Assembly: GCA_027023025.1 (NCBI GenBank)
Contig: JALVXB010000043.1
Coordinates: forward strand, 1 to 64,000
Origin: Caldisericaceae bacterium
Lineage (GTDB): Bacteria > Caldisericota > Caldisericia > Caldisericales > Caldisericaceae
Length of the DNA stretch: 64,000 nucleotides
Reading direction: 5' to 3'
Position numbers and translations under genes: made by a program. Below the pieces are notes generated by a model, which saw only the letters and a program-made list of their open reading frames with translations, was not told where the DNA came from and searched no databases. Of the stretch, positions 29,721 to 63,724 are shown one piece after another; position 1 is the stretch's first letter, and every line of letters starts with the position of its first letter.

Positions 29721-30290
29721 ATGAAACACATAGGAGAAGTAATCACAGTTCGCTCTGATGTACTCGTTGCTGAGGGGGAGAGAAGTGCTCTTCCGCCTCT
29801 CGGGACTATCCTGAAAAGCGATCGTGGTGTTTTGTGTCTCGTCGTTTCGCACTCGATAGACAACAAAATTCCTGGCCGTATGCCAATTGCATACGGAAAG
29901 AGCATAGAGCAACTGGAAAGAGAACAGCCACAGGTGTTTGCACTTATGAAGTGGATGTTTCAGGCGATTCCTTTTGGTACTTTAAGTGAAGGTTCTGTAG
30001 AATTGTTTCTTAATAAGGTAGTGGAAATACATACATTATTATTTGAAACACGGAAGGAAGAAAGGGATCTCATCTTTAAAGAATTGCGTTTTTTTGACTT
30101 TCTATTTTCTATTGATAAAAGTGTATTTCCGCAAAGAGATAAAATCATTGTATCGCTTATTAACGCTTACCTGAACGATTTATTGGAAGTAAAAGAAGAC
30201 GAATATGTAAGAATTTTTTCTTATATTTCTAAGATATTGAGAAACGATTACCAAACACTTAAGTATATTATGGACGGTGTAAGTATATGA
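29721..30290 (+). CDS. HAS-barrel-like protein paired with HerA
   Basis: 189 residues. The first 80 (HIGEVITVRSDVLVAEGER...) resemble the beta-rich HAS-barrel seen at the N-terminus of HerA-type ATPases and their partners; the rest is predicted helical. It overlaps the HerA-like gene by ATGA, so the products are likely to act together. The transcript appears leaderless. Assignment rests on weak sequence resemblance plus context. Confidence 0.5.
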   Translation: MKHIGEVITVRSDVLVAEGERSALPPLGTILKSDRGVLCLVVSHSIDNKIPGRMPIAYGKSIEQLEREQPQVFALMKWMFQAIPFGTLSEGSVELFLNKVVEIHTLLFETRKEERDLIFKELRFFDFLFSIDKSVFPQRDKIIVSLINAYLNDLLEVKEDEYVRIFSYISKILRNDYQTLKYIMDGVSI

Positions 30291-31837
30291 ATGGTTCGAT
30301 AGGTTTCCTAAAGTCTGGTTCGATAGGTGATGGGTTTTTAATCAGGCTGAATAAAACGGTTAACTCGGAATCGCTCCAGATAGGTGATTTTATCGTCGTT
30401 CAGGGTGACCTTTACGATTATTTTGGTATTATAGAAGACATTCGAATAGGTTCTTCAAACGAGGACGTATTCTTCAATCCTCCTGAGAATAAAGTTCAGA
30501 GAATTGCCGTAAAAGGTGCTATTACTTTTAGCGAAGTGCTCGTTACGCCGTATCTTATGATAGAAAAGTCTACGAACAGGGTTGTTACGATAAAAACGAT
30601 TCCTGAGCACTTCTCTGATGCAAGGAAGGCAAACGAACGCGACATCAGAATCGTATTTGGGGGGAACGCGGAAAAAGCATTTCATGTAGGCAGTCCTCTC
30701 ACGATGGACGAGCGGATTTACATCGACCTTGAAAAACTTGCAAAGAGAAATAATGCTATTTTCGGTATTACGGGTTCTGGTAAAACATTTCTTGGAAGAA
30801 TTATTTTTTCAGGCCTTATAAAGCACGATGTTGCATCACTTCTTATCTTTGACATGCACAACGAGTACGGGCAATTTGCAAAAAGTGAAAAGAAAGGAAA
30901 GCTCAAGTCGTTAAAAGGTTTGTTTGGTACTAAAGTAAAGGTATTCGATGTGTCAGATAAGAATAGCAATGCAGATGACTTTATTAAGATTCCGTATGGA
31001 GACATCGCTGCGGCGGATATAGCAATGCTTTCCTTTTTACTTTCCTATTCTCAGCATTCGGAAGAAACTGCATGGATAATTAATAAGCGTTTTGGAGATA
31101 AGTGGCTGAAGCATGTTGAAGAGTTAAGAAGTGCAACCGAAGCAGAAATAGAAGAAAAAGCAAAGGAATGGGGGGTGAACTCCTCCTCTCTTTCAGCTCT
31201 TATCAGGCATCTTGACAAACTTTTGAGTCTGGACTTTATACAAAATATTAAAGAAGACAGTAGTGTGCAAAAAATACTCCGATACCTTAAAAACGGCACT
31301 TCGGTCGTCGTGCAGTTTTCTGGAAAGTATGCAAACAATCCGCTTGCGTACTTTACCGTTGCAAACATTATTACTCGAAGGATTCACGAACTTTATGCAA
31401 GTGCAAGCGAAGAAGAAAGAAACAAGAGGATTATGATTGTGGTAGAAGAAGCGCACAAACTGCTTTCCAGCGATATAAAAGACAAAAACATATTCGGCAC
31501 AATTGCTCGCGAAATGAGAAAGTACAATGTAACGCTTTTCGTAATAGACCAGAGGCCTTCAGAAATTGATTCTGAGGTACTTTCGCAGGTAGGCACGCGT
31601 TTTGTTATGCAACTTATGGACGAGAAGGATATGGATGCCGTTTTTCAGGGAGTAGGAGGAGGAAGCAGGTTGAAAAAAATTCTTCGCACGCTGCAGCCTC
31701 AGGAAGTTTTGCTTTTTGGCTACGCAGTTATGGCTCCCGTTCCTATGCGGGTAAGGGAATATAACGAGAGTTTTTTTAAAGAAGTAAGTGAAAGTGTTTC
31801 TGCACCTTCTGCAGAGGATGCAGACGAACTCTACTGA
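30287..31837 (+). CDS. herA: HerA-type hexameric DNA-translocase ATPase
   Basis: 516 residues. An N-terminal beta domain (HAS-barrel) is followed by the FtsK/HerA ATPase core: Walker A AIFGITGSGKTFLGRI near residue 160, LLIFDMHNEYGQFA, Walker B RIMIVVEEAHKLLS near residue 380, IAREMRKYNVTLFVIDQRPS (sensor region) and a C-terminal arginine-rich motif. HerA translocases pump duplex DNA and in archaea partner the nuclease NurA in end resection; bacterial versions also occur in defence modules. No NurA homologue is adjacent, and lgt follows. The role here is inferred as DNA repair or processing. Confidence 0.85.
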   Translation: MNGSIGFLKSGSIGDGFLIRLNKTVNSESLQIGDFIVVQGDLYDYFGIIEDIRIGSSNEDVFFNPPENKVQRIAVKGAITFSEVLVTPYLMIEKSTNRVVTIKTIPEHFSDARKANERDIRIVFGGNAEKAFHVGSPLTMDERIYIDLEKLAKRNNAIFGITGSGKTFLGRIIFSGLIKHDVASLLIFDMHNEYGQFAKSEKKGKLKSLKGLFGTKVKVFDVSDKNSNADDFIKIPYGDIAAADIAMLSFLLSYSQHSEETAWIINKRFGDKWLKHVEELRSATEAEIEEKAKEWGVNSSSLSALIRHLDKLLSLDFIQNIKEDSSVQKILRYLKNGTSVVVQFSGKYANNPLAYFTVANIITRRIHELYASASEEERNKRIMIVVEEAHKLLSSDIKDKNIFGTIAREMRKYNVTLFVIDQRPSEIDSEVLSQVGTRFVMQLMDEKDMDAVFQGVGGGSRLKKILRTLQPQEVLLFGYAVMAPVPMRVREYNESFFKEVSESVSAPSAEDADELY

Positions 31838-49714: not shown

Positions 49715-50561
49715 TGAGGAATACCTCCGTGTTATCTATAAGCCGTGCCTTTCCGAAGTATGCAGCAACTGCGATAAGCACATCTCTATCTATGTAAGGC
49801 ACATCTTCCAGTGTGTGGATGTCCACTATTGAAATGTAGTCAATCTTCTTCAGCGTTTTTGCCGTGCTCAGCATGTCTTTCATTACCTGTATTACTTTTG
49901 TGCTGTTCCTTTCGCCTTTTAGTATGAGTTCTTTCCCTTTTTCTATCGTCTGGTGAATAAGTGGTGCTTCTTTTCTCTCCTCTGGGGATAGGTACTTGTT
50001 TCTTGAACTCATCGCAAGCCCGTCACTTTCCCGCACGATTGGGCAGGGAACTACCTTTACATCGAGGTTTAAGTCTAAGGACATCCTTTCTAACACTCTG
50101 AACTGCTGGTAATCTTTCTTTCCAAAGTATGCATTATCTGGTTTTACGATGTTGAACAACTTAAGCACAACGGTCGTTACGCCTCTGAAGTGCGTGGGCC
50201 TGAAACGGCCGCAGAGGTATTTGGTGAGTTTTGTTACTTCAACGAATGTTTGAAACCCCTCCGGGTACATTTCTTCTGCCGTTGGGATAAAAACTGCATC
50301 TACGCCTTCTTTTTCTAACTTTTTGCAGTCTCCTTTTTCGTCTCTTGGATAACTGTCCAGATCTTCGTTTGGTGCAAATTGTGTGGGGTTTACAAATATG
50401 CTTGCAACGACGACCTCGTTTTCTTTTTTTGCACACCGCACCAGGGAGAGGTGCCCTTCGTGCAGGTAACCCATCGTCGGAACAAAACCAATCTTTTTAC
50501 CATTTTTTCTCGCTTCGTCAGAAAATGCTTTCATTTCTGATGCGCTTCTTATGATTTTCAT
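49695..50561 (-). CDS. panC: Pantothenate synthetase
   Basis: 288 residues with [18 protein letters not shown] (HIGH-like), [56 protein letters not shown] and [11 protein letters not shown]. Joins pantoate and beta-alanine with ATP. Middle gene of the panG-panB-panC-panD operon. Confidence 0.96.
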
Positions 50562-55782: not shown

Positions 55783-57969
55783 ATGGATGTAAAGGGAGCG
55801 GTTGAATCTGTAAGAAGCACAAAAGAGGGAAAGTTAATTGTAGTTAAAGACGGAAAGGGCACTTTTAAAGTGATCGCAGACGAAGAATACGACATTCAGC
55901 CGGGAATAAGTGTTTCTTTTATCAATGTAAAAGAAGAAAAACGCTTTCTTGGGACGACTTACAAAGTTACTCCTGAAAGCGTAGTTTCTACTTATACGAA
56001 TGTCCCGGTGCTTTACGAGGACCTAAGATATGCGCACTTTTGTGAGTATGCTCTTATTTTCTCGTTTTTTGGTACGCACAAAGAAATCCAAGAAAACAAG
56101 GAAGTTATGTTTTACAACGGTGCAAAGGGTAAATTTCAGGGAAACAGAATTGCAGAGTTTGCAAACAGATATCCAAAGGAGTTGCGAGGCAAATTTTCTT
56201 ACAGGCCTGTAATGTTCTCTGAAAAGTCCGGCGTACTTTTGCGAAGCATTTTACACTTTGGTAAGTTTCCAGTGGTTTTCGACGGAGACGAAACGAAAGG
56301 CATACTCGTTGCTTTGGAAGAAAATAAAAGTAAGTTCGTCACTCTTGACGAAGCGAGTGGAAAGATGAAAGAGCACTCAGTTACGCCAAAGGCCGTATCA
56401 GAAGTAATGTCGCGTAAAAATGCTTTTGCCAGAGAACTTTTCTCTCCTAATCTGAAAGAATTCTGGCAAAAGGATATCGAAAACGATTGTTACTTTGGGT
56501 GCCCTTTAAAGGAATTCTGCAGAAAGGTGCATAAAAATGACGAGAAAAAAGAGGAATTTGAACGCTACTTTGTAGATGCTGCTAAGGACGCTTTGAAGTA
56601 TCGCTCTATCCTGCTTAAAACGATAAAGAGTGGTGAAAACCCGCTGAGATCGTCCACGCGCGTGGTGCTAAAAGAAAAATTTGACGAACCTGATAAAAGT
56701 GTTTATAAACTCGGTATTTTAAGCAACGAGGCGGCAATTAAAAGTGGAGAAGACTTCCTAGTAAGTGAAAAACCTCCTCTTGAGCGAAGAGTATTTGCAA
56801 AAAGCAAGAGTGTAAGTTTTAGAGAGATTGTAGCAGAAAGCGCAGAAGGAATTCTTTCTCCAGAAAAGATATCGCCTCTTCCTCAGGTAGGCACGCACTT
56901 GTACAAAGGATTATTCCGATACCTTTATTCAAGTGTTTTTTCAGACGAATCAATAAAAAGTGCACAGGTTAAAGTAGGTGAAAATAGGCACTTTACTGAC
57001 GATAAGGAGCAGAACGAGGCAATAAATAAATTGTTGGGATTTTCTACTGCGTTTTGTCTGAAAGGCGAGTACGGCACGGGGAAAAAGTTCGTTTTAAGGA
57101 AAGCATTCAGCGAACTTTTACAGAGGGGTAGCACTGTGGGTGTTGCAACGGAGTCAAGGAAAGAAGAAGCAGAGCAATTTTTCAGGGAGACACTTTCTCC
57201 GTGGTTTGAAAAAGGCAAAATTTCCGTTTATTCTGTAAACGATCCTGCACTTTTCAGCAGAAAAGAACTATTTGACTATGTGGTGTTCTTATCCAACGGG
57301 ACGGTAGACGAGAAATTGGCAAAGTCAGTTATGGGACTCTCAAAAAACTTTATTCTCTCTTCGCCGGGGGATTGCGAATTCCTCGAAAGTCTACTGCCGG
57401 AATCTTCGAAAGCCGTATTAAAAACAGAGCATCGTTTTGGCGCACACATTCTACACTTCCTCCAACCCGTTTTATCTGACAAACTTCTGCAAAGTGACGA
57501 TAAAGAATTTAAAGTATTAAACAAAGAGAACATCTCGCCGCAGTTTATGGAAGTAGTAAACCCTGAAAAGTATGTGCAGGCAATTTATGTGAAAGGGCAT
57601 AATAAGGGTGTTAACAATCAATGGAATGTAGAGGAAGCCTCGTTTATAGTAGAGGCAGTAAAAGAATTCGTAAAAGCGGGCATTGAGCGCAGAAATATTG
57701 GGGTAATTGTCCCTTATGAGCGACAGAAAGCGTTGCTTGACGATTTATTTGCGGATTCAAAAATACCTGACATTCTCGTATCTGAACCCCAGGGTGCAGT
57801 GGAAAAAGATGTAGTATTTATTTCTTTTACGAATACGAAAAAAGTGGGCGGCGACTTCGTTAGCGAGTCCATGCTTAAGTCTGCGCTTACGCGGGCGCGG
57901 TGTAAACTGCTACTCGTTGGGCAGAAAGGTATATACAAAGGCTCAAAAGTACTTTCAAAACTTCTGTAA
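55783..57969 (+). CDS. Dna2-like SF1 helicase relative with degenerate ATPase motifs
   Basis: 728 residues. The N-terminal third holds four cysteines spaced like an Fe-S nuclease (C87 then C236-x3-C240-x5-C246), but no clear PD-(D/E)XK core. The C-terminal half has an SF1/Upf1-like layout: a Q motif (EQNEAINKLL), a Walker A-like GEYGTGKK (residues 428-435, Lys instead of Ser/Thr), FDYVVFLSNG at 497-506 where DEAx is expected, then RNIGVIVPYERQKALLDDLF, EPQGAVEKDVVFIS and KSALTRARCKLLLVG, which are good motif IV-VI matches. ATPase activity is doubtful. A GGAGGTG site precedes ATG 55783, and parB follows seven bases after. Confidence 0.7.
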   Translation: MDVKGAVESVRSTKEGKLIVVKDGKGTFKVIADEEYDIQPGISVSFINVKEEKRFLGTTYKVTPESVVSTYTNVPVLYEDLRYAHFCEYALIFSFFGTHKEIQENKEVMFYNGAKGKFQGNRIAEFANRYPKELRGKFSYRPVMFSEKSGVLLRSILHFGKFPVVFDGDETKGILVALEENKSKFVTLDEASGKMKEHSVTPKAVSEVMSRKNAFARELFSPNLKEFWQKDIENDCYFGCPLKEFCRKVHKNDEKKEEFERYFVDAAKDALKYRSILLKTIKSGENPLRSSTRVVLKEKFDEPDKSVYKLGILSNEAAIKSGEDFLVSEKPPLERRVFAKSKSVSFREIVAESAEGILSPEKISPLPQVGTHLYKGLFRYLYSSVFSDESIKSAQVKVGENRHFTDDKEQNEAINKLLGFSTAFCLKGEYGTGKKFVLRKAFSELLQRGSTVGVATESRKEEAEQFFRETLSPWFEKGKISVYSVNDPALFSRKELFDYVVFLSNGTVDEKLAKSVMGLSKNFILSSPGDCEFLESLLPESSKAVLKTEHRFGAHILHFLQPVLSDKLLQSDDKEFKVLNKENISPQFMEVVNPEKYVQAIYVKGHNKGVNNQWNVEEASFIVEAVKEFVKAGIERRNIGVIVPYERQKALLDDLFADSKIPDILVSEPQGAVEKDVVFISFTNTKKVGGDFVSESMLKSALTRARCKLLLVGQKGIYKGSKVLSKLL

Positions 57970-59794: not shown

Positions 59795-59814
59795 TATCGG
59801 TTGGAGGTGATGTG

Positions 59815-60330
59815 ATGAAAAAGGCTCTCCTTATCGTCGATATGCTGAACGACTTCGTCGATAAAAAAGGCGCTTTGAAGGTAGAGGGTGCAGAAGAGAT
59901 CGTACCGTACATAAAAGGTTTTAAGGTGGCATTTAAACGGGAAGGCGGAAAAGTTTTCTACCTCTGCGATTCCCACAAAGAAAACGACCCAGAATTTGAC
60001 CTGTGGCCGCGGCACTGCGTGGAGGGCTCGTGGGGTGCGGAAGTCGTTTCTGCGTTGAAACCCGACCCTGACGACACAGTGATTAAAAAGACTACATACT
60101 CTGGTTTTTACGGCACGGACCTCGACGAAAAACTCAAAGCGAAGGGGATAGACACGCTTTACATTACGGGTGTTGCAATGAACATATGCGTGCACTATAC
60201 GGCTGCAGATGCAAGAATGCGCGGCTACGATGTGATCGTTCCGCTTATGGGTGTAAAAGGGCTTACCAAAGAGGACGAGGATTACATGAAAAAGCAGTTT
60301 GTAAGTGTACTAAAAGTAAAACTCATATAA
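59815..60330 (+). CDS. Isochorismatase-family hydrolase (nicotinamidase-like)
   Basis: 171 residues from ATG 59815 (GGAGGTGATG site; in-frame GTG at 59812). Catalytic triad: Asp in LLIVDMLNDFVDKKGAL, Lys in VIKKTTYSGFYGTDL, Cys in YITGVAMNICVHYTAADA. The DSHKENDPEFDLWPRHC metal-binding segment favours nicotinamidase over isochorismatase. Next to a NAD-kinase-family gene, it suggests NAD turnover or salvage. Eleven bases separate it from the following wHTH gene. Confidence 0.85.
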   Translation: MKKALLIVDMLNDFVDKKGALKVEGAEEIVPYIKGFKVAFKREGGKVFYLCDSHKENDPEFDLWPRHCVEGSWGAEVVSALKPDPDDTVIKKTTYSGFYGTDLDEKLKAKGIDTLYITGVAMNICVHYTAADARMRGYDVIVPLMGVKGLTKEDEDYMKKQFVSVLKVKLI

Positions 60331-60340
60331 AGGGGGAAAG

Positions 60341-61006
60341 ATGAAAACAAAAGAAGAGATGTTGAAACTTATCAGGGAGTCCGGTAAAAAAGGAATGACA
60401 TTAACACAGCTTTCCGGAACGAGAAAACGGAGCAGCGCGGAATACAAACTCACAAAACAATTTCTCGCAGACCTTGAATCTCAGCACCTTATCGTGAAGT
60501 CTGGCAGCAGATACTACCTTGCAGGCGTCAAGGGCAAAAAAACACTAAAGAAAAAAGTAAACTACATCACAAAGGAGGAATTTGAAGAAGTTTTGCGAGA
60601 AGTATACAAAGACCTTTCTGCTTTGAAAAACGAAATTGACCGCGTTTACGAATATGTGGACGAAGTGTTCCTTATAACGCGCAAAAAAAGTGCAGGAAAA
60701 GCAAAAAGTGAACAGGACTTTCCCGATGAAGAAGAAATGCGCATTGCATACGACAACATCAACGAGAGAGAAAATGCTGGCGATTCCGTTTCAATTGCAG
60801 AGTTTAAAAGAGAGTTAGAGAAGATGGGGTTTCGTTTTACGGACGAAGAGATGGACAAAAAACTACTCGAAATGGACAAAAACGAGGTTATCTATCTGCA
60901 GGAAGCGAATAACCCCGAAACGCTTGAAGAAAGTGAGCGAAAGAGAGGCATAGACGATAAGGAAAGAGGTTTTCTCTTTTACATTACATGGATAAAAAGA
61001 CCTTAG
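60341..61006 (+). CDS. Two-winged-helix hypothetical protein, first gene of the ATPase/nuclease cassette
   Basis: 221 residues. The N-terminal about 70 residues look like a winged helix (MLKLIRESGKKGMTLTQLSG, KQFLADLESQHLIVKSGSRY), followed by a helical EF-EEVL region and a charged linker. The C-terminal part (ISIAEFKRELEKMG-like, DEEMDKKLLEMDKNEVIYLQ) looks like a second wing domain. No family recognised. It overlaps the next gene by 19 bases, so the two are translationally coupled. Probably a DNA-binding or adaptor subunit. Confidence 0.6.
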   Translation: MKTKEEMLKLIRESGKKGMTLTQLSGTRKRSSAEYKLTKQFLADLESQHLIVKSGSRYYLAGVKGKKTLKKKVNYITKEEFEEVLREVYKDLSALKNEIDRVYEYVDEVFLITRKKSAGKAKSEQDFPDEEEMRIAYDNINERENAGDSVSIAEFKRELEKMGFRFTDEEMDKKLLEMDKNEVIYLQEANNPETLEESERKRGIDDKERGFLFYITWIKRP

Positions 61007-62958
61007 CGGAAAAGTTCAAAGCCCTTTCACCGTACAAAAACAGTATAGTAAGGACTCCGTGGGACAGCGAAGTCGTTGATGTAAAGACGATCCACAGCAG
61101 GGCGTTTGAAAAGCTCACTGATGCACTGGATACGGTAAAGTCAAGCAGGGCGTCGCTTATTTTTGTGCTTCAAGGCGAGCCGGGCTCTGGAAAGTCGCAC
61201 TTTTTGTGGCGCGTTGCGCGCAGCGCTGAAAGTAAAAAATTTCTTTTCGTGAACATAGTGCCCTATACATACATAAAGCGAATTACATTTTACACGATAC
61301 TTGAAAGTGCAGTGGAAAGCCTTGAGAAGAAACATCCGAATTTGCGCTCTCGCCCGATCGACCACATCATTGGTTATGCTTTGCAGGAAGGTGCACGGCT
61401 GATAAACACAAAGGCACTGCACGATGCTACCGCAGCGTCCATCGTGGGGATGATCAGGGACAACAAAAAGATGCCGTTCGTCGCAAAAAGTCTTTTTAAC
61501 AGCATACCTGAGAACAAAAAAGGTCTTATTCTTAATGTAATGGCACGCAAACTGGCCGCGCGTTATGTGGAATATCCCCGTTACTTTTTTACTCTTTTGC
61601 TTGCCCTTGAAGATAAAGAGAAAGCGCCTCTTGCACTTGAACTGATGAAAGGCGAAACGCTTGGCAAAAAAGAACTACAGAAGATAGGGCTTGACGAATG
61701 CTTTGCACTTGGCGAGAGAGGAGCATTTAATGTATTGTGTTCGTTGATAAAGTTTTCTCCGTTCCCATTTATTATTTCAGTAGATCAGGTGGAGACGCTG
61801 GACAGGCATCTGGATTCAGCAGGTATAGAGAGGTTTTTTGAAAACATTCTCAGTATATACAACAATACGAATAACTCGTTGTTTCTTCTTTCTGTGCAGA
61901 CACAAACATTTAAAAAGTGGACGAAGTTTCTGGCAAAAGACATTCTGGACAGGCTTTCAGAGAGGACGACGATTTTACCGCTTAACCTCGAGCAGGCAAA
62001 GGAAATCGTAAAAGCGCGCAACAGGCACTACTTCAGTAAAATTGGCACTTTGCCTGACGATCCATACTTTCCTTTTGCTGAAAGCCAGATAGAAACTCTC
62101 TACAGGAAGGGTAATAAAAACCCGAGAAAACTCATTAAAGCGCTGGACTACCTGCTGGAAAGCGGGGAACTTACCGAACAGAAAGATACGGTTCAGGGTA
62201 GTTTTAAAAATTACATCCGAAATGTAGAATACAGTGACAGTGAGTTTAGAAAAGAATTTACGGATTTACTTGCAAAAATCGTAGAAGGGAGCGATGTCCT
62301 GAAGGAAACTCCTACATACGCAATTCTGAAACTCGGAAAAACGGGATTTGCAGTGAATAATTCGAAGCATTCTTTGTACAGTTGTGTCAGCCACTTGTCG
62401 CGATTTATCAGGAAGCGCACGATTAGATTTGCACTACTTCTAAGAAGCAACAGTTTGCCGGTGCGTGCTACTGCGAAGAAGACGAATGAACTGCTAAGAA
62501 AGCACGGAATAAAAGTCGTTTACTATTCCACAGAGGTAGGCGAAGTCCTTATTACGGTTTCGAAGATGCTGAGAGATGCAGAGTCTGGAGATCTGGACAT
62601 AGAAATAAAAGAGGTGGAACGATTTGCCAGGCAAAAAATTGGAGAAGCACTTCCAGAAGTTGCGCGGACAGTTTTCGCAGATATCGGTGAAGTGTCCCAA
62701 AAAGAGAGCGTGAGAAATAGAAAGCCTGTTACTGCTAAAACGAAGAATAACTCCAAGAAAAACGGCCTGAATGCGGTTGAAAGGCAAATAGAAAAAATCC
62801 TTGAAACGCGCAAAATTATTTCTTACGACAAACTTTTAAGTCTTTTAAAGAAGAATGCAAAGGAAGTTGACGCTGCGCTTTTTAACCTTGCGAACCGTAA
62901 TAAAGTAAGAATTATTAATAGAAAGTATGGAGAAAAGTGGGTCTTTAGCAGACTGTGA
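60988..62958 (+). CDS. P-loop ATPase (AAA/STAND-like) with C-terminal winged helix
   Basis: 656 residues. Walker A LQGEPGSGKSHFLWR (G63-S70), Walker B FIISVDQVE (261-269) and a sensor-1-like LFLLSVQTQ (298-306) mark an ORC/AAA-type ATPase with a helical insert between. Arginine-rich KNPRKLIKALDYLLE near residue 370 resembles sensor 2 or a lid. Residues about 460-560 form a possible nuclease-like alpha/beta domain (FALLLRSNSLP, GIKVVYYST), and the last 65 form a winged helix. No exact family recalled. It overlaps its neighbours on both sides. Confidence 0.72.
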   Translation: MDKKTLAEKFKALSPYKNSIVRTPWDSEVVDVKTIHSRAFEKLTDALDTVKSSRASLIFVLQGEPGSGKSHFLWRVARSAESKKFLFVNIVPYTYIKRITFYTILESAVESLEKKHPNLRSRPIDHIIGYALQEGARLINTKALHDATAASIVGMIRDNKKMPFVAKSLFNSIPENKKGLILNVMARKLAARYVEYPRYFFTLLLALEDKEKAPLALELMKGETLGKKELQKIGLDECFALGERGAFNVLCSLIKFSPFPFIISVDQVETLDRHLDSAGIERFFENILSIYNNTNNSLFLLSVQTQTFKKWTKFLAKDILDRLSERTTILPLNLEQAKEIVKARNRHYFSKIGTLPDDPYFPFAESQIETLYRKGNKNPRKLIKALDYLLESGELTEQKDTVQGSFKNYIRNVEYSDSEFRKEFTDLLAKIVEGSDVLKETPTYAILKLGKTGFAVNNSKHSLYSCVSHLSRFIRKRTIRFALLLRSNSLPVRATAKKTNELLRKHGIKVVYYSTEVGEVLITVSKMLRDAESGDLDIEIKEVERFARQKIGEALPEVARTVFADIGEVSQKESVRNRKPVTAKTKNNSKKNGLNAVERQIEKILETRKIISYDKLLSLLKKNAKEVDAALFNLANRNKVRIINRKYGEKWVFSRL

Positions 62959-63724
62959 CTTCTCGGTAAGTGATGTCGTTACTGCTTTTAAGTGTCCATT
63001 GCAATTCTACTTTTCGAGAAAAGGAATAGTTGCCCACTTTTACTACGGTGGAAAAAGTGTGGGAAGTTTTGTCCACAAAGTGCTTTCTGAATTTACAGAC
63101 TTGCTCGTTACCCGTACGCTGTTCGAGAGTGAAAACGACTTGAATGTCGTTGAAAATACACTCTACAGAAGTTTTTACAATGTGGCAATAAAGAGTAAAA
63201 GTTACAGAACGAACCTGGAAGATGCCTGGCAGTACATTAAGTCAATAGGTGCATACTTTGAAGGTATTACGGCAGGGAAAAGCACTTCTGAAATTCGCGA
63301 CATGTTTATTCTTTCTGAGCGCTCGTTCTCGGTGAACTTTTTTGGCACGCAAATATGCGGCCGTTTTGACCTGCTGTTGCGCGATGAGAGAAAAATCAGG
63401 ATTGTAGATTACAAAACGCGCGACAGAGATCCTGAAGTAGATGCCGTGCAAATTGCGCTATACAAGTACGCCGTAAAGCAAATTACTGGTGTAGAGGCAG
63501 AGCCAGTGCTTCTTTACATTCTGGACGGTGAGTTAAAAGAAGAAGTGTTTACAGAAGAAGAATATTCACTCGTTATCTCTGGCATTCGAAAGCAGATTAA
63601 AGACATGAAAGATTTTCTTTCGGGTAGGAAAGTCCCAGAACGGACAGTCGACCGTGCTCTTTGCAATCACTGTTCTTTGAAGACGAGTTGCAAGGTGCTG
63701 CGTAAGAAGTTTTTTGGTCTATAA
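62927..63724 (+). CDS. Cas4/RecB-like PD-(D/E)XK nuclease with 4Fe-4S cysteines
   Basis: 265 residues matching the Cas4/AddB-nuclease plan: C23 in FKCPLQFYF, H50 in GSFVHKVLSE, GRFDLLLRD (D148), IRIVDYKTRD with D161 and K163 as (D/E)xK, QIALYKYAV (QxxxY), and C246-x2-C249-x5-C255 at the C-terminus, giving four cysteines for a 4Fe-4S cluster. All catalytic residues are present. The ATG lies 32 bases inside the end of the ATPase gene. No CRISPR array or cas1/cas2 is near, so it is not an ordinary Cas4. It likely works with the ATPase in DNA resection or defence. Confidence 0.8.
   Translation: MEKSGSLADCDFSVSDVVTAFKCPLQFYFSRKGIVAHFYYGGKSVGSFVHKVLSEFTDLLVTRTLFESENDLNVVENTLYRSFYNVAIKSKSYRTNLEDAWQYIKSIGAYFEGITAGKSTSEIRDMFILSERSFSVNFFGTQICGRFDLLLRDERKIRIVDYKTRDRDPEVDAVQIALYKYAVKQITGVEAEPVLLYILDGELKEEVFTEEEYSLVISGIRKQIKDMKDFLSGRKVPERTVDRALCNHCSLKTSCKVLRKKFFGL

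Follow-up and report, generated by a model that had tools for sequence, protein, structure and literature searches.

What do three overlapping genes near the end of a 64,000-nucleotide stretch of Caldisericaceae DNA (the window) do, and do they do it together? The window belongs to the genome of a Caldisericaceae bacterium, a thermophile, of 1.66 Mb in 43 contigs. The genes lie on the + strand at 60341-61006 (A), 60988-62958 (B) and 62927-63724 (C), as do all features given below for their proteins of 221, 656 and 265 aa (~1,140 residues in total). An earlier note on this DNA had described three serially overlapping genes, and our ORF calls agree, with overlaps of 19 nt (A/B) and 32 nt (B/C). 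These overlaps are kept family-wide, at 16-22 nt for A/B and 11-41 nt for B/C, and their recurrence across genera indicates that they are not accidental. Most likely, as argued below, the trio is a DNA-surveillance nuclease complex. A nicotinamidase-like gene (59812-60330, + strand) precedes A wherever the stretch is covered, the exception being a second, partial copy of the locus in one genome (L020 in G009), which has another gene there. As the nicotinamidase-like gene is present also where B and C are absent, it is probably context and not a component.

Protein B is predicted to combine an AAA+ ATPase of the Orc/Cdc6-BrxC type with a REase-like fold devoid of catalytic residues and a C-terminal winged helix. 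Its Walker A motif (GEPGSGKS, residues 63-70; 61174-61197) is invariant in all 10 Caldisericaceae sequences aligned, and within its Walker B motif (IISVDQVE, residues 262-269; 61771-61794) S264, D266 and Q267 are invariant and E269 is nearly so, bearing out the earlier reading of both motifs as intact. In the AF2 model (mean pLDDT 74.7) an AAA+ core with its lid is followed by region 417-533 (62236-62586; pLDDT ~80-90) and then by the winged helix (residues 593-655; 62764-62952), which also gives weak Pfam and NCBIfam matches. Region 417-533 runs helix-strand-strand-strand-helix-strand-helix-strand-helix and contains no (D/E)xK motif, and from this topology we infer an inactive REase-like domain. 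Foldseek returned the AAA+ folds of ORC/Cdc6, BrxC, MuB and HslU, at low TM-scores of 0.2-0.3. The likeness to BrxC, an ORC/Cdc6-type AAA+ protein, extends weakly to sequence (BrxC_BrxD 8e-4, under the Pfam cut-off), and no match to PglZ, BrxX, BrxA or BrxB was found among the window proteins scanned with PADLOC. A sequence-profile search of the PDB found a close relative for none of the three proteins.

Protein C is assigned to the PD-(D/E)XK nucleases (Pfam PDDEXK_1, 3e-22) and carries four cysteines of the Fe-S type. The earlier note had recognised both sets of residues, and all of them proved invariant in 11 sequences: H50, D148, D161-x-K163, Q175 and Y179 on the one hand, and C23, C246, C249 and C255 on the other. 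The catalytic stretch from D148 to D161-Y-K163 is encoded at 63368-63415, the CxxCx5C motif of the last three cysteines at 63662-63691 and C23 at 62993-62995. On these residues, protein C is predicted to be a REase with an intact active site. Fold class and cysteines are shared with Cas4, but the better fit is to PDDEXK_1 than to the Cas4 models: PF01930 is matched at 2e-9, and the 51 bits against TIGR00372, the Cas4 equivalog, lie under its cut-off of 65 bits. Neither a CRISPR-like repeat nor cas1 is found at the trio locus. The earlier statement that cas1/cas2 are lacking is therefore correct for the locus and too broad for the genome, which encodes a Cas1 on another contig (C36) and in which protein C is the sole match to PF01930. 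From AddAB and RecBCD the protein differs in being a stand-alone nuclease of 265 aa and not a subunit of an SF1 helicase-nuclease; the PDDEXK_1 proteins of the window genome amount to two stand-alone nucleases, with none of AddAB size.

Protein A, according to homology and AF2, consists of an N-terminal winged helix (residues 1-65; 60341-60535), a long coiled-coil helix and a C-terminal wHTH-like domain (residues 124-220; 60710-61000). The winged helix, already proposed in the earlier note, is modelled at pLDDT ~84-92 and has Sso10a as its best PDB match, with a weak E-value. The C-terminal part is modelled by AF2 at low confidence; the same domain occurs in the cyanobacterial A proteins described below and in a mobile-element protein.

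The distribution of the genes within the family indicates that they are inherited as a unit. The ATPase gene is present in 11 of the 18 Caldisericaceae genomes (the copy in G005 is cut by a contig end) and in 0 of the 43 non-Caldisericaceae genomes of the same sample. In each ATPase-bearing genome A and C flank B wherever the contig reaches, and the order is always A-B-C. Maximum-likelihood trees of A, B and C recover the same main groups and are largely congruent; the trio occupies a fixed chromosomal site and is inherited vertically across genera. Judged from dN/dS values within genus g1 (0.075 for A, 0.114 for B and 0.077 for C), it is under purifying selection.

Gene A is found more widely than B and C: 15 of the 18 Caldisericaceae genomes carry it, and it is absent from the rest of the phylum sample. 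Genera g6 and g8 have it after the nicotinamidase gene but have neither ATPase nor nuclease; the next gene is an FRG gene in g6 and a convergent lexA in g8. B and C are absent from both genera, including genomes that are 90-95% complete, and a search of the g6 interval from A to the FRG gene revealed no remnant of either. The A tree places g8 among the trio holders g4, g3 and g7 and, with weak support, g6 next to g2 and g9; the simplest reading is that the ATPase-nuclease pair was lost twice. Where the pair is missing, A itself has changed. Its dN/dS in g6 is 0.21-0.35, against 0.11-0.14 for the neighbouring nicotinamidase gene, and of 24 C-terminal columns that are invariant in trio holders, 8-9 are changed in g6 and 7 in g8. 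Loss of binding partners would produce just such relaxation and alteration, and these changes, the best in-silico evidence on the point, fit a protein A that works with B and/or C. The two lineages thereby form a natural experiment by which the partner-contacting residues of the wHTH protein could be picked out. Genomes without ATPase and nuclease also carry isolated fragments of 36-38 codons from the C-terminal end of protein A (L055 7866-7982, L056 42-152 and L057 4608-4718), which are probable remnants.

The same trio occurs in a second phylum. Searching plasmids with the ATPase led to Pseudanabaena PCC 7367, in which one gene run on a conjugative plasmid encodes a protein of 266 aa, a P-loop protein and a nuclease-FtsK protein. 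A profile search turned up this gene set in further genomes. Full-length relatives of the ATPase were present in 24 of 194 cyanobacterial genomes sampled, with a patchy distribution and with duplicates (for the phylum group of G374, the name Cyanobacteria rests on clear similarity to the Pseudanabaena proteins). At the 20 loci compared, A adjoins B in 17 and C adjoins B in 15; three loci start with B in tandem, and two contain A and B with no C in the covered stretch. Profile-profile comparison aligned B with cyanobacterial B over 563 columns (E 7e-28), and C with the nuclease part of cyanobacterial C over 255 columns (E 1e-15), catalytic residues and cysteines included. The A proteins match less strongly than B or C do, over no more than ~86 residues of the C-terminal domain (hhalign E 6e-6 to 6e-5, vs 0.52 for an unrelated wHTH control). 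In most cyanobacterial C proteins an N-terminal exonuclease-like domain, with weak matches to DEDDh exonucleases (5e-5 to 7e-3), is followed by the nuclease, FtsK-alpha and FtsK (PF01580 6e-37). In genome G150 it is B that is fused directly to an FtsK motor, which argues for physical contact. Shared ancestry of the Caldisericaceae and cyanobacterial trios, and the coupling of their genes, are well supported. Homologues that occur scattered and never side by side, which the earlier note would have counted against its reading, are not what we found: the order is the same in the family and in Cyanobacteria. Its proposal of a three-part complex is upheld as regards coupling, through gene order, overlaps, co-inheritance, purifying selection and the cyanobacterial trio, but the association is not obligate, given that A stands alone in g6 and g8.

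Wider searches added little to this picture. Among 386 genomes sampled, most of them beyond the phylum, the only relatives outside the family were those of the cyanobacterial type and one ATPase-FtsK fusion. A second genome sample yielded no further relatives, searches outside the two phyla being sampled ones, and among the viral contigs searched neither A, B nor cyanobacterial B had a relative. ATPases on Synechococcus plasmids gave weak matches (E 3e-6 to 9e-4) and were set aside, as their neighbours are TIR/macro or methyltransferase genes without the trio. The G150 fusion (L087 8316-12097), of an Orc/Cdc6-like ATPase with FtsK, lies behind a 254-aa gene, and no nuclease part was recognised in it. 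On the Pseudanabaena conjugative plasmid, a Zorya/Dpd-like SNF2 helicase and a SWIM gene adjoin the trio (L059 2292-6453).

To which known system does the trio belong? Rakesh, Aravind and Krishnan (2024; PMC10853773) predicted an anti-invader 'HerA/FtsK capture system' based on an Orc/CDC6 ATPase. In the mobile neighbourhoods that they describe, this ATPase has an inactive REase between its AAA+ core and C-terminal wHTH, and is accompanied by an active REase, HerA/FtsK and wHTH; some neighbourhoods have a DndG-like multi-wHTH protein, and in others the motor is fused to a 3'-5' exonuclease. By its predicted domains the cyanobacterial trio fits this architecture (section 22 of PMC10853773). Our literature search found no experiment on the class, which does not disprove that one exists. 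The window trio shares with it an Orc/Cdc6-like AAA+ ATPase that ends in a wHTH (from AF2 secondary structure and the ORC/Cdc6, BrxC and MuB folds, at low TM) and may carry a REase-like domain ahead of it, a PD-(D/E)XK nuclease that is predicted to be active, and a separate, fast-evolving multi-wHTH protein (an N-terminal wHTH and the C-terminal domain shared with cyanobacterial A), in the gene order of the cyanobacterial form. It differs in having neither a HerA/FtsK motor nor a 3'-5' exonuclease at the locus, and in being stable and vertically inherited, not mobile. From window position 50000 to the contig end at 75802 there is no HerA/FtsK gene; a gene for HerA is found ~29 kb upstream. Since the class description applies except for the HerA/FtsK component, with a putative inactive REase, we class the Caldisericaceae trio as a motor-less variant of the capture class and not as a member. 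No PADLOC model fits the trio, so the earlier claim that it matches no named system holds for that collection; it does not hold for the literature, in which the parent class had already been predicted.

Two other groups invite comparison. The motor-independent Orc/Cdc6 neighbourhoods of PMC10853773, with REase-ASCH and a DndG-like triple wHTH, likewise have ATPase, nuclease and multi-wHTH protein and no HerA/FtsK; protein C, however, is an Fe-S PDDEXK nuclease of the Cas4/AddB kind, and the Pfam scan gave no ASCH domain. SspFGH (PMC8092258) and DndFGH resemble the trio in having three genes, a Walker-A protein and a component with an FtsK/HerA end, as well as a wHTH subunit in DndFGH, but the window proteins match no PADLOC model of SspF, SspG, DndF or DndG, and the phosphorothioation gene DndC is absent from the window genome. 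SspFGH was rejected for the cyanobacterial trio as well, the motor of which matches the C-terminal part of SspH in its FtsK part alone, with no Ssp model matching A or B.

With this in mind, we favour, with moderate confidence, a view of the trio as a compact form of the predicted Orc/CDC6-type HerA/FtsK capture systems that lacks the motor; its likeliest use is the interception of invading DNA. Both the anti-invader function and the physical A-B-C complex with its order of action are what we infer. According to this model protein A, probably a dimeric winged-helix protein, would bind DNA and contact the ATPase and/or the nuclease through its C-terminal domain; A and B together would select and hold the target. 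Protein B would load on and remodel the DNA in an ATP-dependent manner and switch or load the nuclease, licensing cleavage, and protein C, as a Cas4/RecB-like nuclease, would nick or resect the target. The anti-invader reading is made likelier by the parent class, by the patchy and plasmid-borne cyanobacterial relatives, and by the overlap of an FRG gene with the nuclease gene in g2 and g5. Counting against it is the fixed chromosomal position and vertical inheritance of the trio in Caldisericaceae, unlike most defence systems. Moreover, no modification gene accompanies the trio, and without one, and without DndC, self/non-self discrimination is unexplained under the anti-invader reading. The short and weak A-A match, the low TM-scores of B and the lack of a fitting PADLOC model weigh on the same side.

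For these reasons about a quarter of the probability stays with a housekeeping role in DNA repair or replication-fork processing, where B would load at damaged or stalled DNA, A would hold it and C would resect, as a stand-in for AddAB/RecBCD. Stable inheritance at one chromosomal site, the absence of a modification gene and a convergent lexA that adjoins the locus or lies close to it in g3, g4, g7 and g8 speak for it, as do the strong purifying selection, the Cas4/AddB type of the Fe-S nuclease and a genome whose PDDEXK_1 proteins are two stand-alone nucleases, none of AddAB size. Set against this, B and C are missing from g6 and g8, also in genomes that are 90-95% complete, and the cyanobacterial relatives are patchy, duplicated and in one case plasmid-borne; lexA and the nicotinamidase gene, moreover, stay in place without B and C, so that their synteny is not specific. 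One may also speculate, more doubtfully, that an anti-invader complex of the capture type was domesticated in the ancestor of Caldisericaceae, losing its own motor and becoming a machine for DNA surveillance, fixed in the chromosome, that is motor-free or borrows the HerA of the cell. That the genes share nothing but an operon position, with A a transcription factor, B a STAND/KAP-like ATPase and C a solo Cas4 serving CRISPR adaptation proteins elsewhere, would agree with the Cas1 on contig C36, with the lack of any other PF01930 match and with the persistence of A alone in g6 and g8. This seems improbable in view of the same trio order in a second phylum, where C is fused to a motor, the joint absence of B and C, the alteration of A where both are missing, and the overlaps conserved across genera.

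Very unlikely, in our view, is an anti-invader system whose motor acts in trans and is the HerA-like ATPase encoded at 30287-31837 of the window (PF01935 4e-31). The HerA gene overlaps a gene for a 189-aa protein (29721-30290), and no NurA-like or other nuclease gene was recognised beside it; this vacancy, and the motor carried in cis by the cyanobacterial trio, would suit such an arrangement. HerA, however, is retained by every one of the nine family genera, including g6 and g8, which lack B and C, and hence serves a role of its own; co-distribution gave no support for HerA as a fourth component that the system requires. An IGHMBP2/Dna2-like helicase gene (55783-57969) in the same gene run as the trio is present in most family genomes; we rejected it as a partner because in other genera the contigs show no linkage between it and the trio.

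If the capture-type reading is correct, the trio represents a small three-protein version, from a thermophile, of a predicted defence class. It should be easier to reconstitute and to solve than the FtsK-fused forms, and would show what the core of Orc/Cdc6 ATPase, nuclease and wHTH protein does without a DNA pump.

Two further observations concern the surroundings and relatives of the trio. Locus L054 (G011:C157, 447-5037) is part of a small contig that also carries a primase of the RepB type and a restriction-modification pair resembling HinP1I, and encodes a two-HTH protein; searches of phage records with protein A and of plasmid records with the L054 protein gave no matches. The C-terminal domain of the two-HTH protein is nearly identical to that of its host's protein A, suggesting a recent exchange between protein A and a mobile element. 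Lastly, an FRG-domain gene lies near or overlaps the end of the nuclease gene in g1, g2 and g5 (L060 6398-7201, contig 68397-69200; L021 4488-5294; L025 658-1467), the nuclease stop being overlapped in g2 and g5. The FRG domain belongs to the ART superfamily and is a proposed antiviral effector, and this gene is possibly a fourth component.
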